NCBI RefSeq assembly: GCF_900111005.1
Contig: NZ_FOFV01000010.1
Span: 248,001 to 312,000, forward strand
Direction of reading: 5' to 3'
Length of the DNA stretch: 64,000 nucleotides
Source of the DNA: Lentzea albida
GTDB lineage: Bacteria; Actinomycetota; Actinomycetes; Mycobacteriales; Pseudonocardiaceae
Positions 7,499 to 24,259 of the stretch are shown here, one piece after another (the stretch's first letter is position 1; the number at the start of each line of letters is the position of its first letter). Both the position numbers and the translations under genes were made by a program. Under the pieces are notes generated by a model that searched no databases, was not told the DNA's origin, and saw only the letters and a list, made by a program, of their open reading frames with translations.

Positions 7499-9045
7499 GA
7501 CACCACCTTCTCCGGCGCGGCCCCGCCCGCGATGAGTTCCACGACCTCGTCGACGCCGGTCACCGAGCCGTCCAGCTCGGCGATCTTGCGCCGGTCGCGC
7601 AGCACGACGATGCGGTCGGAGATGCGCACGACCTCCTCCAGTTCCGCGGAGATGAACAGGACCGCGGTGCCCTCCGCGGCCAGGGTCGTGACGAGCTGCT
7701 GGATCTGGGCCTTGGCACCGATGTCGATGCCGCGCGTCGGTTCGTCGAGGATCAGCAGCCGCGGCTCGGTGACGAGCCAGCGCGCCAGGAGCACCTTCTG
7801 CTGGTTGCCGCCGGACAGGGTGCGCACCAGCGCGTCCGGGTTGGCGGGCCGGATGTCGAGCGCCTTCAGGTACTTCTCGACCAGCTGGTCCTTGGTCCTG
7901 CGCGGTAGCGGGCGCGTCCAGCCGCGTGCGGCCTGCATCGCGAGCACGAGGTTGTCGCGGATCGAGAGGTCCGCGACGAGGCCCTCGCCCTTGCGGTCCT
8001 CGGAGCTGAACGCGATGCCCGCCGCGATCGCGGACCGGGGCCCGCGCAACCGCAGGGGCTTGCCGTCCACGACCAGCCTGCCGGAGTCCGCTCGGTCCGC
8101 GCCGAAGAGCAGCCGGGCGAGTTCCGTGCGGCCGGAGCCGAGCAGACCGGCGAGGCCGACGACCTCGCCCGCGCGGATCTCCAGGTCGAACGGGTCGATG
8201 GCGCCGCGCCTGCCGAGCTCCGACGCGTGCAGCAGCACCGGTCCGTCGGGGTGGCGCTTCTCCGCGGCGTCCTCGATGGCCTCCAGCGCGCCGAGGTCGC
8301 GGCCGATCATCTGCGCGATGAGCGTGCGCCGGTCCACGTCCGCGGTCAGGTGCTCGCCGACGAGGGAACCGTTGCGCAGCACCGTCATCCGGTCGGAGAT
8401 CTCGTAGACCTGGTCGAGGAAGTGCGACACGAACAGGATCGCCACGCCCTCGTCGCGCAGCACGCGCATGATCCGGAACAGCTCGGCGACCTCACCCGCG
8501 TCCAGGCTGGACGTCGGCTCGTCGAGCACCAGGACGCGGCAGTCGACGGCGATCGCGCGGGCGATGGCGACGAGTTGCTGCACGGCGATCGGGTGTTCAC
8601 CGAGGCTCGACCCGGGGTCGATGTGCACCCCGATGCGCGCGAGCACCTCCCCGGCGCGCTTGCGCATCGCCGGGAAGTCGATGCCGCCGAACCTGCGCGG
8701 TTCGCGGCCCAGCAGGATGTTCTCCGCGACCGTGAGGTTCGCGCAGAGGTTGACCTCCTGGTACACCGTGCTGATCCCGGCGTGCTGGGCCTCGCCGGGG
8801 GAGGAGAACGCCACCTCGTCACCACCGAGCACGACCTGCCCGCCGTCGGGCCGGTGCACGCCGGTCAGGGTCTTGATCAGGGTGGACTTGCCGGCGCCGT
8901 TCTCGCCCATGAGGGCGTGCACCTCGCCGGGGAACAGCCGGAAGTCGACGTCCTGCAACGCTTTCACGCCGGGGAACGCGAGGCTGATGCCCCGCATCTC
9001 GACGACCGGTGGTGGTGGTTCGTTCAACGGCGGGGTCATGGGCAC
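7495..9045 (-). CDS. Sugar ABC transporter double ATPase, YtfR/RbsA-like
   Basis: 516 residues with two fused nucleotide-binding domains. Domain 1: Walker A GENGAGKST near 47-55, Walker B VLVLDEPTSSLD, and a degenerate signature (IAVQQLVAIARA) as in other RbsA-type proteins. Domain 2: a Walker A variant GLLGSGRTE, an intact LSGGNQQK signature, and Walker B LLILDEPTRGID. It energises pentose/furanose import through the two permeases downstream. ATG at 9045. A long hairpin lies between the binding-protein gene and this one, a usual way of keeping ATPase expression below that of the binding protein. Confidence 0.95.
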   Translation of the reverse strand: MPMTPPLNEPPPPVVEMRGISLAFPGVKALQDVDFRLFPGEVHALMGENGAGKSTLIKTLTGVHRPDGGQVVLGGDEVAFSSPGEAQHAGISTVYQEVNLCANLTVAENILLGREPRRFGGIDFPAMRKRAGEVLARIGVHIDPGSSLGEHPIAVQQLVAIARAIAVDCRVLVLDEPTSSLDAGEVAELFRIMRVLRDEGVAILFVSHFLDQVYEISDRMTVLRNGSLVGEHLTADVDRRTLIAQMIGRDLGALEAIEDAAEKRHPDGPVLLHASELGRRGAIDPFDLEIRAGEVVGLAGLLGSGRTELARLLFGADRADSGRLVVDGKPLRLRGPRSAIAAGIAFSSEDRKGEGLVADLSIRDNLVLAMQAARGWTRPLPRRTKDQLVEKYLKALDIRPANPDALVRTLSGGNQQKVLLARWLVTEPRLLILDEPTRGIDIGAKAQIQQLVTTLAAEGTAVLFISAELEEVVRISDRIVVLRDRRKIAELDGSVTGVDEVVELIAGGAAPEKVVS

Positions 9046-20520: not shown

Positions 20521-21279
20521 ATGTCGAGAGCGCATGCACGACCGCAACGGAGCAAACGGGTGATCGTGGCCGGGCTGGGTGTCGCGGCGACCTTGACCGC
20601 GGTGACGGCGGCCGTCGCCTTCGCCGGTGGCGAGACCGCGACGGGCGCCGTGGTGTGCCCGCAGCCGGTCGTCCCCGCCGTTCCGGCCGCGGCGCAGGCC
20701 GAGGTGCGGCGGGAGCTGGCGAACCTGGACAAGCAGATCGCGGAGGCCAACGAGCGGCTGCGCACCTCTGCCGGTGAAGGCGGGCCGAACTTCGTGCAGA
20801 ACGCGATCCTCGGTCCGTTGGCCAGCAAGCGCGTCGCCGCGCTGAACCGCATCGAGACGGCCATCGGCCGGGTCGCCGCGAAACCCGAGGGGCTGGAGAG
20901 GTTCGCGACCTGCGGGCTTGGTCAGGCACCCGCCGTGTCCGCACCGCCGACCACCTCGAAACCCGCCGCGAGCGGATCGAGCGCACCGGTGGCCGGTGGG
21001 GCGATCGAATGCCCGTCGCCCGTGCTCCAGGACGTGCCGGCGGCCGCGCGGGCCGAGGTCGACCGCGAGCTCGCGAACCTCGGCAAGCAGCTCGCGGAAG
21101 CGAACGAGCGGCTGCGCACCTCGGTCGGTCAGGGCGGGCCGAACTTCGTGCAGAACGCGATCCTCGGCCCGTTGGCGAGCAAGCGCGCCGCCGCGCTGGA
21201 CCGGATCGCGATCGCCGTCGGCCGCGTGCAGGCGCGGCCCCAGGGACTGGAGCGCTTCGCCACCTGCTCGCTCAAGTGA
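20521..21279 (+). CDS. Secreted protein of two tandem ~85-residue repeats, unknown function
   Basis: 252 residues. A basic N-terminus and hydrophobic helix (14-36) form a signal peptide or anchor. Two copies of one domain follow (about 46-132 and 163-251), joined by a Pro/Ser/Thr/Ala linker. Each begins with a Cys (VVCPQPV, IECPSPV) and ends with one (RFATCGL, RFATCSL), and shares ELANL.KQ.AEANERLRTS and GGPNFVQNAILGPLASKR. The two Cys per repeat may form a disulphide closing each helical unit. I recognise similar secreted proteins in streptomycetes but no activity. Near-identity of the repeats suggests a recent duplication. Confidence 0.8.
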   Translation: MSRAHARPQRSKRVIVAGLGVAATLTAVTAAVAFAGGETATGAVVCPQPVVPAVPAAAQAEVRRELANLDKQIAEANERLRTSAGEGGPNFVQNAILGPLASKRVAALNRIETAIGRVAAKPEGLERFATCGLGQAPAVSAPPTTSKPAASGSSAPVAGGAIECPSPVLQDVPAAARAEVDRELANLGKQLAEANERLRTSVGQGGPNFVQNAILGPLASKRAAALDRIAIAVGRVQARPQGLERFATCSLK

Positions 21280-21432: not shown

Positions 21433-23403
21433 ATGACCAGACTCCCTGCTCTGCTCGCCGCTTCGGCGCTCATGCTCTCCACCGCGACGCCCGTCACGGC
21501 CGCCGCCGACGCCGTCCTGGTGCGGCCGGATCCGACCTACCAGCAGGAGCCCTTCCAGGGCTGGGGGACGAGCCTGGTGTGGTTCGCCAACGCCACCGGC
21601 GGCTACCCGGACGAGATCCGCAACCGGTTGGCCGAGCTGCTGTTCGGTGAGGACGGCCTGAACCTCGACATCGCCCGCTACAACATCGGCGGCGGCAACG
21701 CCCCCGACGTGCCGCCGTACCTGCGGGCGGGCGCCGCGGTCCCGGGCTGGTGGAAGGCGCCGGAGGGGACCACGCGGGAGGACACCGACTGGTGGCGGCC
21801 CGGCGATCCGCGTTTCTTCGACGCGGCGGCGGATCCACGTCAGCGCTGGTGGGTCGACCGGATCAAGCGGGACGTGACGCGGTGGGAGTCGTTCAGCAAC
21901 TCGCCGCCGTGGTTCCAGACCGTGAGCGGGTACGTGTCCGGCGGCTTCGACCCGAACGCGGACCAGTTGCGCGAGGACAGGATCGGCGACTTCGCGGCCT
22001 ACCTCGCACAGGCGACCGCGGAGCTGGAACGCGCCCACGGCATCCGGTTCGCCACGGTCGACCCGTTCAACGAGCCCAACACCTCCTACTGGCGCACCAC
22101 GCTCGGCCCGGACGGCAACCCGACGGGCGGGCGGCAGGAGGGAGCGCACATCGGGCCCGCGTTGCAGGCGAAGGTCGTGCCCGCGATGGCGGAGGCGTTG
22201 CGCGCCAACGGCCTCAAGGCGGCCGTGTCCGCCCCGGACGAGACCAATCCCGGCATCTTCGCCGAGAACTGGGCGGGTTATCCCGCCTCCGCACGCGCGC
22301 AGGTCGGCCAGCTGAACGTGCACACCTACGGCACGGCACGCCGCACGACCGCCCGGGACATCGCCAAGGGCGCGGGCAAGCCGTTGTGGATGAGCGAGGT
22401 CGACGGGCACTGGGGTGCAGGGCAGAGCTTCACGAGCATGGACCCCGGACTGGGGATCGCCGAGCGCGTGATCGACGACCTGCGCGAGCTGGAGCCGCGT
22501 GCCTGGCTGCTGTGGCAGGCCGTCGAGGACTACAACAACATGAGGCCCGGTGCCGAGTCTCCGGACGGCATGAACTGGGGAGTGGTGCAGATCCCGTTCG
22601 ACTGCGGGCCGGGGGACACCCTGGCGACGTGCCCGGCGCGCGTGAACACGAAGTTCCACGCGTTGCGGAACTTCACCCACTTCGTGAGGCCCGGCGACCG
22701 CCTGGTGAAGGTGAACACCACGACGGACGTGGCGGCGGTGCGCGGCACCGAGCTGAAGTCCGTGGTGCACCTCAACAAGAGCGACCAGGCGCAGTCCGTG
22801 ACGCTGGACCTGTCGGCGTTCGGGTCGGTGCGGCCGGGCGCGTCCGTGCGACCGGTCGTGACGGACCAGCACGGCGCGTTGGTCAAGGGCGCGGCCGTGA
22901 ACGTGCAGAACCGCCGGGCGACCCTGTCCGTGCCCGCCAGGTCGGTCACCACCTTCGAGGTGAACGGCGTGAGCGGGGTGAACCGCGCGGCGGCGCTCGG
23001 TGGGGAATACCGGCTCACGGGGGTGCAGAGCGGCAGGTCCCTGGCGCCGTCGGGCACCTCGCTCGTCCAGCGCACCACCGATCCTTCCGCGGCGGACCAG
23101 GTGTGGCGCGTGGAGCGGCGTTCGGGCGGCTACGACCACCGCGCGCAGTTCTCGATCGTCAACGCCGCCACGGGGCAGCGGATCGCGGTGAACGGCGCCG
23201 ACGTCGTGCTGGGCACCGCGGACGGGCCGGCCGCGAGGTGGGTGCTGTCCTCGACGGGGGACGGCACATGGACGTTCGTGAACGCCTCCACCGGCAGCCT
23301 GCTCGACGTGATCGGGGAGTCGCGTGAGGACGGTGCCCGGATCGGGACGTACCACGCGACCTCGGGGGCCAACCAGCGCTGGACCGCCGTTGCGCGCGGT
23401 TAG
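21433..23403 (+). CDS. Secreted GH30 (probable endo-beta-1,6-galactanase) with C-terminal CBM13-like domain
   Basis: 656 residues: signal peptide (about 1-24), GH30 barrel plus beta side domain to about 500, and a ricin-type trefoil (about 525-656: TGVQSGRSLAP, IVNAATGQRIAV, FVNASTGSLLDV, ending NQRWTAV). Acid/base Glu in FNEPN (E214) and nucleophile Glu in SEVDG (E322). The layout matches GH30_5 beta-1,6-galactanases of Streptomyces, which cut type II arabinogalactan side chains; subfamily is my judgement. ATG 21433 follows GGAG by 6 nt. Its arabinose-type operator links arabinogalactan breakdown to the arabinose regulon. The next gene starts inside its 3' end. Confidence 0.88.
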   Translation: MTRLPALLAASALMLSTATPVTAAADAVLVRPDPTYQQEPFQGWGTSLVWFANATGGYPDEIRNRLAELLFGEDGLNLDIARYNIGGGNAPDVPPYLRAGAAVPGWWKAPEGTTREDTDWWRPGDPRFFDAAADPRQRWWVDRIKRDVTRWESFSNSPPWFQTVSGYVSGGFDPNADQLREDRIGDFAAYLAQATAELERAHGIRFATVDPFNEPNTSYWRTTLGPDGNPTGGRQEGAHIGPALQAKVVPAMAEALRANGLKAAVSAPDETNPGIFAENWAGYPASARAQVGQLNVHTYGTARRTTARDIAKGAGKPLWMSEVDGHWGAGQSFTSMDPGLGIAERVIDDLRELEPRAWLLWQAVEDYNNMRPGAESPDGMNWGVVQIPFDCGPGDTLATCPARVNTKFHALRNFTHFVRPGDRLVKVNTTTDVAAVRGTELKSVVHLNKSDQAQSVTLDLSAFGSVRPGASVRPVVTDQHGALVKGAAVNVQNRRATLSVPARSVTTFEVNGVSGVNRAAALGGEYRLTGVQSGRSLAPSGTSLVQRTTDPSAADQVWRVERRSGGYDHRAQFSIVNAATGQRIAVNGADVVLGTADGPAARWVLSSTGDGTWTFVNASTGSLLDVIGESREDGARIGTYHATSGANQRWTAVARG

Positions 23404-24259
23404 CGGCCTGCTGGCGCTGGTCCTGCTGGCGGGGTGCTCGGCGCCCCCGCCCGCACCGGCGCCGCCGACCCGCGCGTCCCAGAAGCCGCCGACGCTGGTC
23501 AACGAGCAGGTCCGCGCGGAAGGCGTGCTGCACTTCGTGCGGGACGTGGTCGACGGCCGGACCGTGGAGCTGGCGGACGGCACGAAGGCCCGGATCGCGC
23601 AGCTGGCGGCCCCACCCGCCTGCGGTGAGGCGGGCGCGCTCTCGTTCGCCAGGACGACGTTGCTGGCCAGCGCGGTGCGCATCAGCCCGATGCTGTCCGG
23701 CGACGTGAAGCTGACGCTCGAGGACGGCACGGACTACGCGTTGCTCGCCGTGCGGCAGGGCGCCCTCCGGGCGGAAGGAACCGACGGCGGCGCGCTGCTG
23801 ACCGCCGAGTCCGAGGCGGCCGCCGCCGACCGCGGTCTGTGGGGCCCGCCCTGCGAAGCGCCGGCGGTCGCGCCCACCACCACGACGACGGTCCCGCCGC
23901 CACCGCGTCTCACGACCACCGCCGCGCCCCCTCCCGCACGGACGTGTGCCGTGTCGTACCGGCTGGCCGGGCAGTGGCCCGGTGGTTTCCAGGCGCAGGT
24001 GACCGTGCGCAACACCGGTACCGCCCCGATCAACGGCTGGGTGCTGCGCTGGACTTTCGCGAGCGGGCAGGTGGTCACCGAGATGTGGAACGCGACGCCG
24101 AGGCAGTCCCGTGGGACCGTCGACGCCGTGAACGCCCACTACAACCCGCTGATCCAGCCGGGTGGTTCGGTGGAGATCGGGTTCAACGGGTCGGCACAGC
24201 GCGGAAACGCCGCTCCGACGGGGTTCACGCTCAACGACCAGCCGTGCTCGGTCGCATGA
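23390..24259 (+). CDS. Lipoprotein with SNase-like domain fused to CBM2
   Basis: About 289 residues from TTG 23390, the only start that directly opens a lipoprotein signal (GLLALVLLAGCS, lipobox LAGC). A Pro-rich tether is followed by a thermonuclease-like OB domain (about 45-155: VRDVVDGRTVELADGTKARIA, then TAESEAAAADRGLWGP). The catalytic segment normally reading TPE is APP here, so nuclease activity is doubtful. After a Thr/Pro linker comes a CBM2 (about 190-289; CAVSYRLAGQWPGGFQ, PINGWVLRW, FTLNDQPCS). A cell-surface cellulose- or xylan-binding lipoprotein is the likely role. Overlaps the GH30 gene by 14 bp and abuts the convergent LacI gene. Confidence 0.82.
   Translation: MRAVSGLLALVLLAGCSAPPPAPAPPTRASQKPPTLVNEQVRAEGVLHFVRDVVDGRTVELADGTKARIAQLAAPPACGEAGALSFARTTLLASAVRISPMLSGDVKLTLEDGTDYALLAVRQGALRAEGTDGGALLTAESEAAAADRGLWGPPCEAPAVAPTTTTTVPPPPRLTTTAAPPPARTCAVSYRLAGQWPGGFQAQVTVRNTGTAPINGWVLRWTFASGQVVTEMWNATPRQSRGTVDAVNAHYNPLIQPGGSVEIGFNGSAQRGNAAPTGFTLNDQPCSVA

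Follow-up and report, generated by a model that had tools for sequence, protein, structure and literature searches.

Architecture of the lipoprotein gene

The window, the whole stretch of 64,000 nucleotides of Lentzea albida DNA analysed here, carries a gene whose translation from a TTG codon yields a protein with a signal peptide bearing the lipobox LAGC, then a Pro-rich segment, a domain resembling SNase, a linker rich in Pro and Thr, and finally a CBM2 (Table 1). The start of this gene overlaps the stop end of an upstream GH30 gene by 14 nt, an arrangement also found in the relatives L044 and L049 (both with TTG) and L053 (GTG), and the candidate starts of the other relatives lie between 0 and about 80 nt past the GH30 stop. 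A longer start, GTG 23324, may be used for the window gene. The lipobox noted in the first-pass annotation is present as expected of a bacterial lipoprotein, with its Cys at residue 16. Using a PROSITE-type lipobox pattern, 63 of the 67 CBM2-type Lentzea relatives match and four do not, with a stricter pattern matching 54/67. Judging from the sequence, the window protein is predicted to be exported, lipidated at Cys16 and surface-exposed.

Table 1. Coordinates of the lipoprotein gene, its parts and the preceding GH30 gene in the window
Feature	Position	Strand	Basis or remark
GH30 (PF14587) enzyme resembling endo-beta-1,6-galactanases and ending in a ricin-B lectin tail	21433..23403	+	Pfam, PDB relative
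SNase-like/CBM2 lipoprotein, whole gene	23390..24259	+	289 aa; predicted start codon
Signal peptide and lipobox LAGC, Cys = residue 16	23390..23437	+	sequence
Pro-rich linker 1	23438..23527	+	model confidence partly low
OB fold of SNase type, catalytically inactive by sequence (roughly residues 47-155)	23528..23854	+	profile, hhalign, model superpositions
Arg57 at the catalytic Asp21 position	23558..23560	+	alignment; Arg in 83/84 Lentzea domains
Arg68 at the catalytic Arg35 position, kept	23591..23593	+	alignment; Arg in 57/84 Lentzea domains
Ala-Ala-Pro-Pro, residues 73-76, replacing Asp40-Thr-Pro-Glu43	23606..23617	+	alignment
Pro/Thr-rich linker 2	23855..23944	+	model confidence low
CBM2	23945..24256	+	PF00553 E 2.9e-30; 6qfs Z 20.0; aromatics W, W, Y

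The middle domain adopts an SNase fold

Pfam analysis lists no PF00565 match up to E 1 in the window protein, no match over the PF00565 cut-off occurs anywhere in its own genome, and NCBIfam provides no name for the middle domain. Comparison of a middle-domain profile against PDB sequences retrieves human SND1 (E 8.1e-6 and 5.2e-5), and hhalign matches the profile to four intact actinobacterial SNases at 99.7 % (E 3e-27). AlphaFold was run on the mature window protein with 79 relatives. The model of the mature protein has a mean pLDDT of 85 with a low-confidence linker, and its pTM of 0.48 is expected, since the mutual position of the two domains is open; the SN domain alone reaches pLDDT 83 and pTM 0.77. 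The modelled OB fold superposes (VIA-align) on SND1 (5m9o; Z 16.2, rmsd 1.8, 111 residues) and on Staphylococcus aureus nuclease (2pzu; Z 15.3, rmsd 2.2, 109 residues), and with the SN domain alone Foldseek recovers both of these proteins at E values of 4e-6 to 7e-6 and a query TM of about 0.7. Given the profile and hhalign matches, the kinship with SND1 and SNases is independent of the model. The middle domain is thus a real SNase fold which is missed by PF00565, staying below its curated cut-off, and the OB fold proposed in the first-pass annotation is borne out by HMM searches and structure prediction, with no model at odds with it.

Loss of the nuclease site

The first-pass annotation had read the catalytic TPE as changed to APP and the nuclease site as apparently lost. 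Alignment against the intact relatives L174, L175, L160 and L038, with residues numbered as in SNase, agrees with this reading (DTPE in the intact relatives corresponds to AAPP in the window protein) and extends it, with D21 replaced by Arg, D40 by Ala and E43 by Pro, and the segment containing R87 deleted. From the catalytic set D21, R35, D40, E43 and R87 only R35 is kept in the window protein; D19 is also kept. Among the 84 Lentzea domains read, D21 and D40 are replaced in every case (by Arg in 83 and by Glu in one, respectively), E43 is replaced in 82 (by Asp in seven) and kept as Glu in two, and no residue aligns with R87 in any of the 84. Position 35 is Arg in 56 of 69 CBM2-class rows, two tail-less rows included, and in one of 15 Excalibur-type rows. 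The first member of the Cys pair is found in 84/84 domains and the second in 77/84, with an alignment gap in seven. The sequences show no alternative site that is intact, and an active nuclease with a displaced site was considered very unlikely as no conserved replacement residues are apparent.

All five catalytic residues are kept in four of the 63 non-Lentzea proteins read. Arg occupies position 21 in 12/31 non-Lentzea proteins, including the nearest Excalibur-tailed ones, and the D21→Arg change thus predates the CBM2 fusion. In L161 and L162, from another genus, D21 is Val and D40 is Gln, yet R35 and R87 are kept, which may point to repeated loss of the nuclease site within the SN-domain family. 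The partial proteins L167 and L172 were left out of the residue table and the domain tree.

The CBM2 module

The CBM2 recognised in the first-pass annotation is confirmed by both family and fold. CBM_2 (PF00553) matches residues 186-286 with 105 bits against a curated cut-off of 24 (E 2.9e-30), and the C-terminal part of the model superposes on the Cellulomonas fimi CBM2 6qfs (VIA-align Z 20.0, rmsd 0.9, 104 residues). CBM2 surface aromatics bind flat polysaccharide faces such as cellulose. At these positions the window protein has W, W and Y, which suggests binding to a flat polysaccharide, e.g. cellulose. Of the 67 fused CBM2s, 66 retain the first two Trp, with both positions lost in L058, and 61 have Tyr at the third, with six relatives lacking an aromatic Tyr there. 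The CBM2 label of the 67 rows was assigned by tail length, lack of an Excalibur motif and alignment; Pfam analysis of twelve of them and of L036 returned CBM_2 in 13/13. The CBM2s of cellulases (C. fimi 6qfs, 1exg) share the fold and the surface aromatic positions, but sit on glycoside hydrolases, whereas here the module is carried by a non-catalytic lipoprotein. Ten further stretches matching the query CBM2 part lie at 34016-55087 of the window, where genes for probable cellulose-binding enzymes are thus densely clustered on the contig of the lipoprotein gene.

Distribution and copy number

A search of 60 genomes located the SN domain in 24/24 Lentzea genomes and 3/36 others. A CBM2-fused copy occurs in 23/24 Lentzea genomes; the exception, G023, has two copies, both Excalibur-ended. 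The genome of the window encodes five copies, three with CBM2 and two (L009 and L010) with an Excalibur domain (PF05901) by Pfam. In the window protein CBM2 stands where Excalibur would, and no Excalibur domain is found. The 84 Lentzea proteins read, comprising 79 loci (from the best 80 of 88 relatives) and the five of the window's own genome, include 67 ending in CBM2, 15 in Excalibur and two tail-less proteins; this set falls short of every Lentzea copy, more having appeared in the 60-genome search. The tail-less proteins, L092 and L096 (near 8001-8336 of their loci; frames of 198 and 193 aa), have a dead SN domain and no tail domain, and perhaps represent secondary CBM2 loss, as they branch inside the CBM2 group. 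A Lentzea-type set (L063, L068, L073 and L109) is also encoded in the record of Nocardia sp. NRRL S-836, which matches G007, of the same genus, and is probably misnamed.

At least 159 of the 390 genomes in a family sample contain a match, mostly as a single copy outside Lentzea, and the matches in a phylum sample of 396 include the window's own genome and two others, both with intact SNases; as at most eleven candidates were scored per genome in both samples, absence from them is weak evidence. Sixty of the 135 matching non-Lentzea genomes were opened, with one protein taken from each, and 14 further matches in these genomes (11 + 3) lie outside the protein set. None of the 63 non-Lentzea proteins read has a CBM2 tail. 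An Excalibur end, labelled by a text pattern (21/33 + 23/30) and by eye in L149 and L210, is found in 46/63, the rest having neither or an unnamed tail. Pfam was run on L009, L010, L145 and L174.

History of the fusion

In a tree of the SN domain (115 rows, 115 columns) the 67 rows with a fused CBM2 form a single group with the two tail-less ones (support 99/94). In a CBM2 tree, which took 22 of the 67 fused CBM2s chosen across clades, these are set apart from 24 other CBM2s of the window's own genome (support 96/93), and the fused modules thus form a branch of their own among the CBM2s of this genome. Both trees were midpoint-rooted for drawing only, and many forks are unresolved. The two trees fit one fusion followed by duplications, and repeated independent captures of a CBM2 are not favoured, as the fused rows group in the tree of either module. 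It would appear that in a dead, membrane-anchored SNase-Excalibur protein the tail gave way to a CBM2 a single time within Lentzea, and that duplication into about five lineages ensued. A donor in the window's own cellulase cluster was also considered: the nearest rows of the CBM2 tree are found there, without strong support.

Pairing with a GH30 gene

The best PDB relative of the GH30 enzyme encoded upstream of the lipoprotein is the secreted endo-beta-1,6-galactanase 24td (E 3.9e-41). Orthologs of this enzyme (79-92 % identity to that of the window) are found in 22/24 Lentzea genomes, the window's own included, and are lacking in G013 and G023. As read by eye from the places of both genes, an SN-domain gene directly follows the GH30 ortholog on the same strand in 21 of the 22 genomes, G002 being the exception. 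At the level of loci, GH30 lies directly upstream in 21/26 of those in the two window-like clades (12/13 and 9/13). The region of the window clade further encodes an FGGY kinase and an L-arabinose isomerase upstream, and a pectate lyase and ABC transport proteins downstream, and this clade is placed in a plant-polysaccharide region. No conserved glycoside hydrolase is present among the recurrent neighbours of the other CBM2 paralog clades. Some of the gene calls were made by a simple GC3 score.

Selection on the two modules

Nei-Gojobori dN/dS values, each a rough figure from one estimate over some 100 codons, are 0.09 for the SN part and 0.24 for the CBM2 part between the window protein and that of L. 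cavernae. Over 15 close pairs the value for the SN part is at most 0.47, and it is lower than that of the CBM2 part in nine of 14 pairs and higher in five. Such values are at odds with decay of the domain and also weigh, though with less force, against its being a passive spacer. Recent decay to a pseudogene was rejected on the dN/dS values together with the fixation of the changes, and a chance or mis-annotated frame on purifying selection and occurrence in 24/24 genomes of the genus.

Relation to known systems

The closest known proteins are the nucleases of the SNase family (PF00565), above all anchored SNase-Excalibur proteins (e.g. L174), which share the OB fold, export, the Cys pair and a GLWGPPC end. 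The anchored proteins differ in carrying a C-terminal Excalibur domain, whereas the window protein has a CBM2 instead, has lost the catalytic residues and is missed by PF00565. Bacillus subtilis YokF presumably has a nuclease domain. It is named as an Excalibur protein in a passage of PMC5137146, which also states that in pneumococcal CbpL the Excalibur domain is a Ca2+ binder and is not folded when the ion is absent. By analogy with CbpL, the ancestral Excalibur tail was probably a Ca-dependent module.

SND1/Tudor-SN is the nearest solved relative by profile and, together with S. aureus nuclease, by fold. SND1 also has SN-like domains without a full nuclease site. However, it is an intracellular protein with multiple SN domains and a Tudor domain, and with neither lipobox nor CBM, whereas the window protein has a single SN domain followed by CBM2 and no Tudor match. 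PMC5900569 describes SND1 as a ribonuclease. A further parallel is provided by the AbpS/FilP-like proteins, coiled-coil proteins that are not known to contain a CBM2 or OB fold; these too are actinomycete proteins of non-catalytic cellulose affinity, such affinity being predicted for the lipoprotein. Their cellulose affinity, in Streptomyces, is described in PMC6224456.

The first-pass annotation considered this architecture unfamiliar, and a fusion of SNase-like domain and CBM2 was indeed not found in the titles and abstract starts of the open-licence PMC literature, nor were the genus-wide expansion and the GH30 gene partner. The main text of the Lentzea genome paper PMC9120177 contains no word starting with 'nuclease', 'lipoprotein' or 'cellulose-binding', and mentions CBM2 once, in a list. 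The parts are of known kinds and their combination is, as far as found, new in print. The family represents bacterial pseudoenzymes in which a nuclease fold was disarmed in ancestors and kept under selection, and which gained a plant-fibre module, apparently once and in one genus, before duplicating to several copies per genome. It thereby offers a testable case for the use of a dead SNase domain outside eukaryotic SND1, as well as a candidate non-enzymatic, glycan-holding lipoprotein of Gram-positive plant-biomass degraders that is paired with an arabinogalactan enzyme.

Possible roles of the protein

The explanation we prefer, to which we give an even chance of being correct, is that of an exported, lipid-anchored protein that tethers the cell or a glycan to cellulose during attack on arabinogalactan, with the pseudonuclease as a non-catalytic binding or docking module. 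A lipid on Cys16 would anchor the protein to the membrane, and its CBM2, on a flexible linker, would grip a cellulose fibre, thereby keeping the cell, or fragments of glycan in its vicinity, attached to plant cell walls. The OB fold, a putative relic of the membrane-anchored SNase-Excalibur protein, would be kept to bind or dock a further ligand, most likely glycan fragments or the co-encoded galactanase. The lipoprotein is probably made, and its gene co-transcribed, with the overlapping GH30 endo-beta-1,6-galactanase, and would then serve arabinogalactan use. As the OB domain occurs with Excalibur, with CBM2 or alone and is conserved, it can be regarded as the functional core that stays constant, with the tail serving to target it. 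The tether is backed by the lipobox pattern in 63/67 relatives, the OB fold and CBM2 of the model, the lost catalytic residues, the conserved CBM2 aromatics, the GH30 pairing amid plant-polysaccharide genes, the purifying selection on the SN part and the joint branching of the fused rows in either tree. Points against the tether are the five of 26 window-like loci without a GH30 partner, the lack of a conserved glycoside hydrolase neighbour in the other CBM2 paralog clades, the aromatics lost in L058, the six relatives without Tyr at the third position, the SN part evolving faster than the CBM2 part in 5/14 pairs, and the lipobox absent from 4/67 relatives.

The first-pass annotation left the OB fold as either a spacer or a ligand-binding module. 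A passive stalk holding the CBM2 clear of the membrane, with the CBM2 alone at work, would accord with the loss of all metal-binding residues and with the Pro/Thr linkers flanking the OB fold on both sides, but is unlikely in view of the strong purifying selection in several pairs, the near-fixed D21→Arg (83/84) and the survival of the OB core with an Excalibur tail or none, where there is no CBM2 to lift. Purifying selection and the near-fixed Arg suggest a retained binding role, and this half of the earlier proposal is the better supported one. A dock for a secreted partner at the surface and fibre, above all for the co-encoded GH30, draws on the tight gene pairing (21/22 genomes) and on SND1, the nearest structural kin, having been solved with a protein partner (4qmg, by its title). 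Paralogs in the other clades, however, have the same OB core without a GH30 neighbour, and the GH30 already has its own lectin tail, which makes such a dock distinctly unlikely.

Binding of extracellular DNA, RNA or nucleotides without cutting is suggested by the SNase fold, the kinship with SND1 and the R35 found in 56 of the 69 CBM2-class and tail-less domains. It is nonetheless quite improbable, as R35 is present in only 1/15 Excalibur-type Lentzea copies, R87 is gone in 84/84 and the domain has a net charge of -6 in the window protein and a median of -4 in the CBM2 class, although two intact relatives are also at -6. Continued nuclease activity through a different residue set is barely credible: the fold is intact and the window protein keeps D19 and R35, but D21, D40 and R87 are absent from 84/84 Lentzea domains, and no conserved acidic replacement is seen beyond the one Glu at D40 and the seven Asp at E43. 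A more specific form of ligand binding, which we regard as improbable, is that the Ca/nucleotide site was rebuilt as a metal-free anion pocket for an acidic plant-glycan residue or an acidic partner. The D21→Arg change would place a fixed positive charge where Ca2+ was held, beside D19 and the mostly kept R35, and candidate ligands would include a uronate of arabinogalactan or pectin. If true, the family would be one of modular pseudonuclease receptors whose Excalibur tail was traded for a CBM2 as a means of targeting, and a nuclease active site would have been turned into a glycan receptor.

Further genes at the paralog loci

Other genes recur around members of the family. At 20521-21279 the window encodes a predicted secreted protein whose two halves, each some 75 residues long, look alike by eye, with no Pfam family over the cut-off. 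In 11/13 and 9/13 loci of the two window-like clades a gene of this type is found upstream of the lipoprotein gene, two genes away. The clade B copies occur near protocatechuate-dioxygenase genes; those at L075:10132-11476 encode protocatechuate 3,4-dioxygenase, and may reflect either synteny or a link to lignin-derived aromatics. In clade D a DUF1996 gene is found near the lipoprotein gene in 5/9 loci, for example at L101:8733-10217 (- strand), where it lies opposite the lipoprotein gene. Furthermore, 14/24 Lentzea genomes (G001, G004, G006, G011, G012 and G014-G022) have a second GH30 paralog of larger size, with 57-61 % identity and reading frames of 954-1018 aa.
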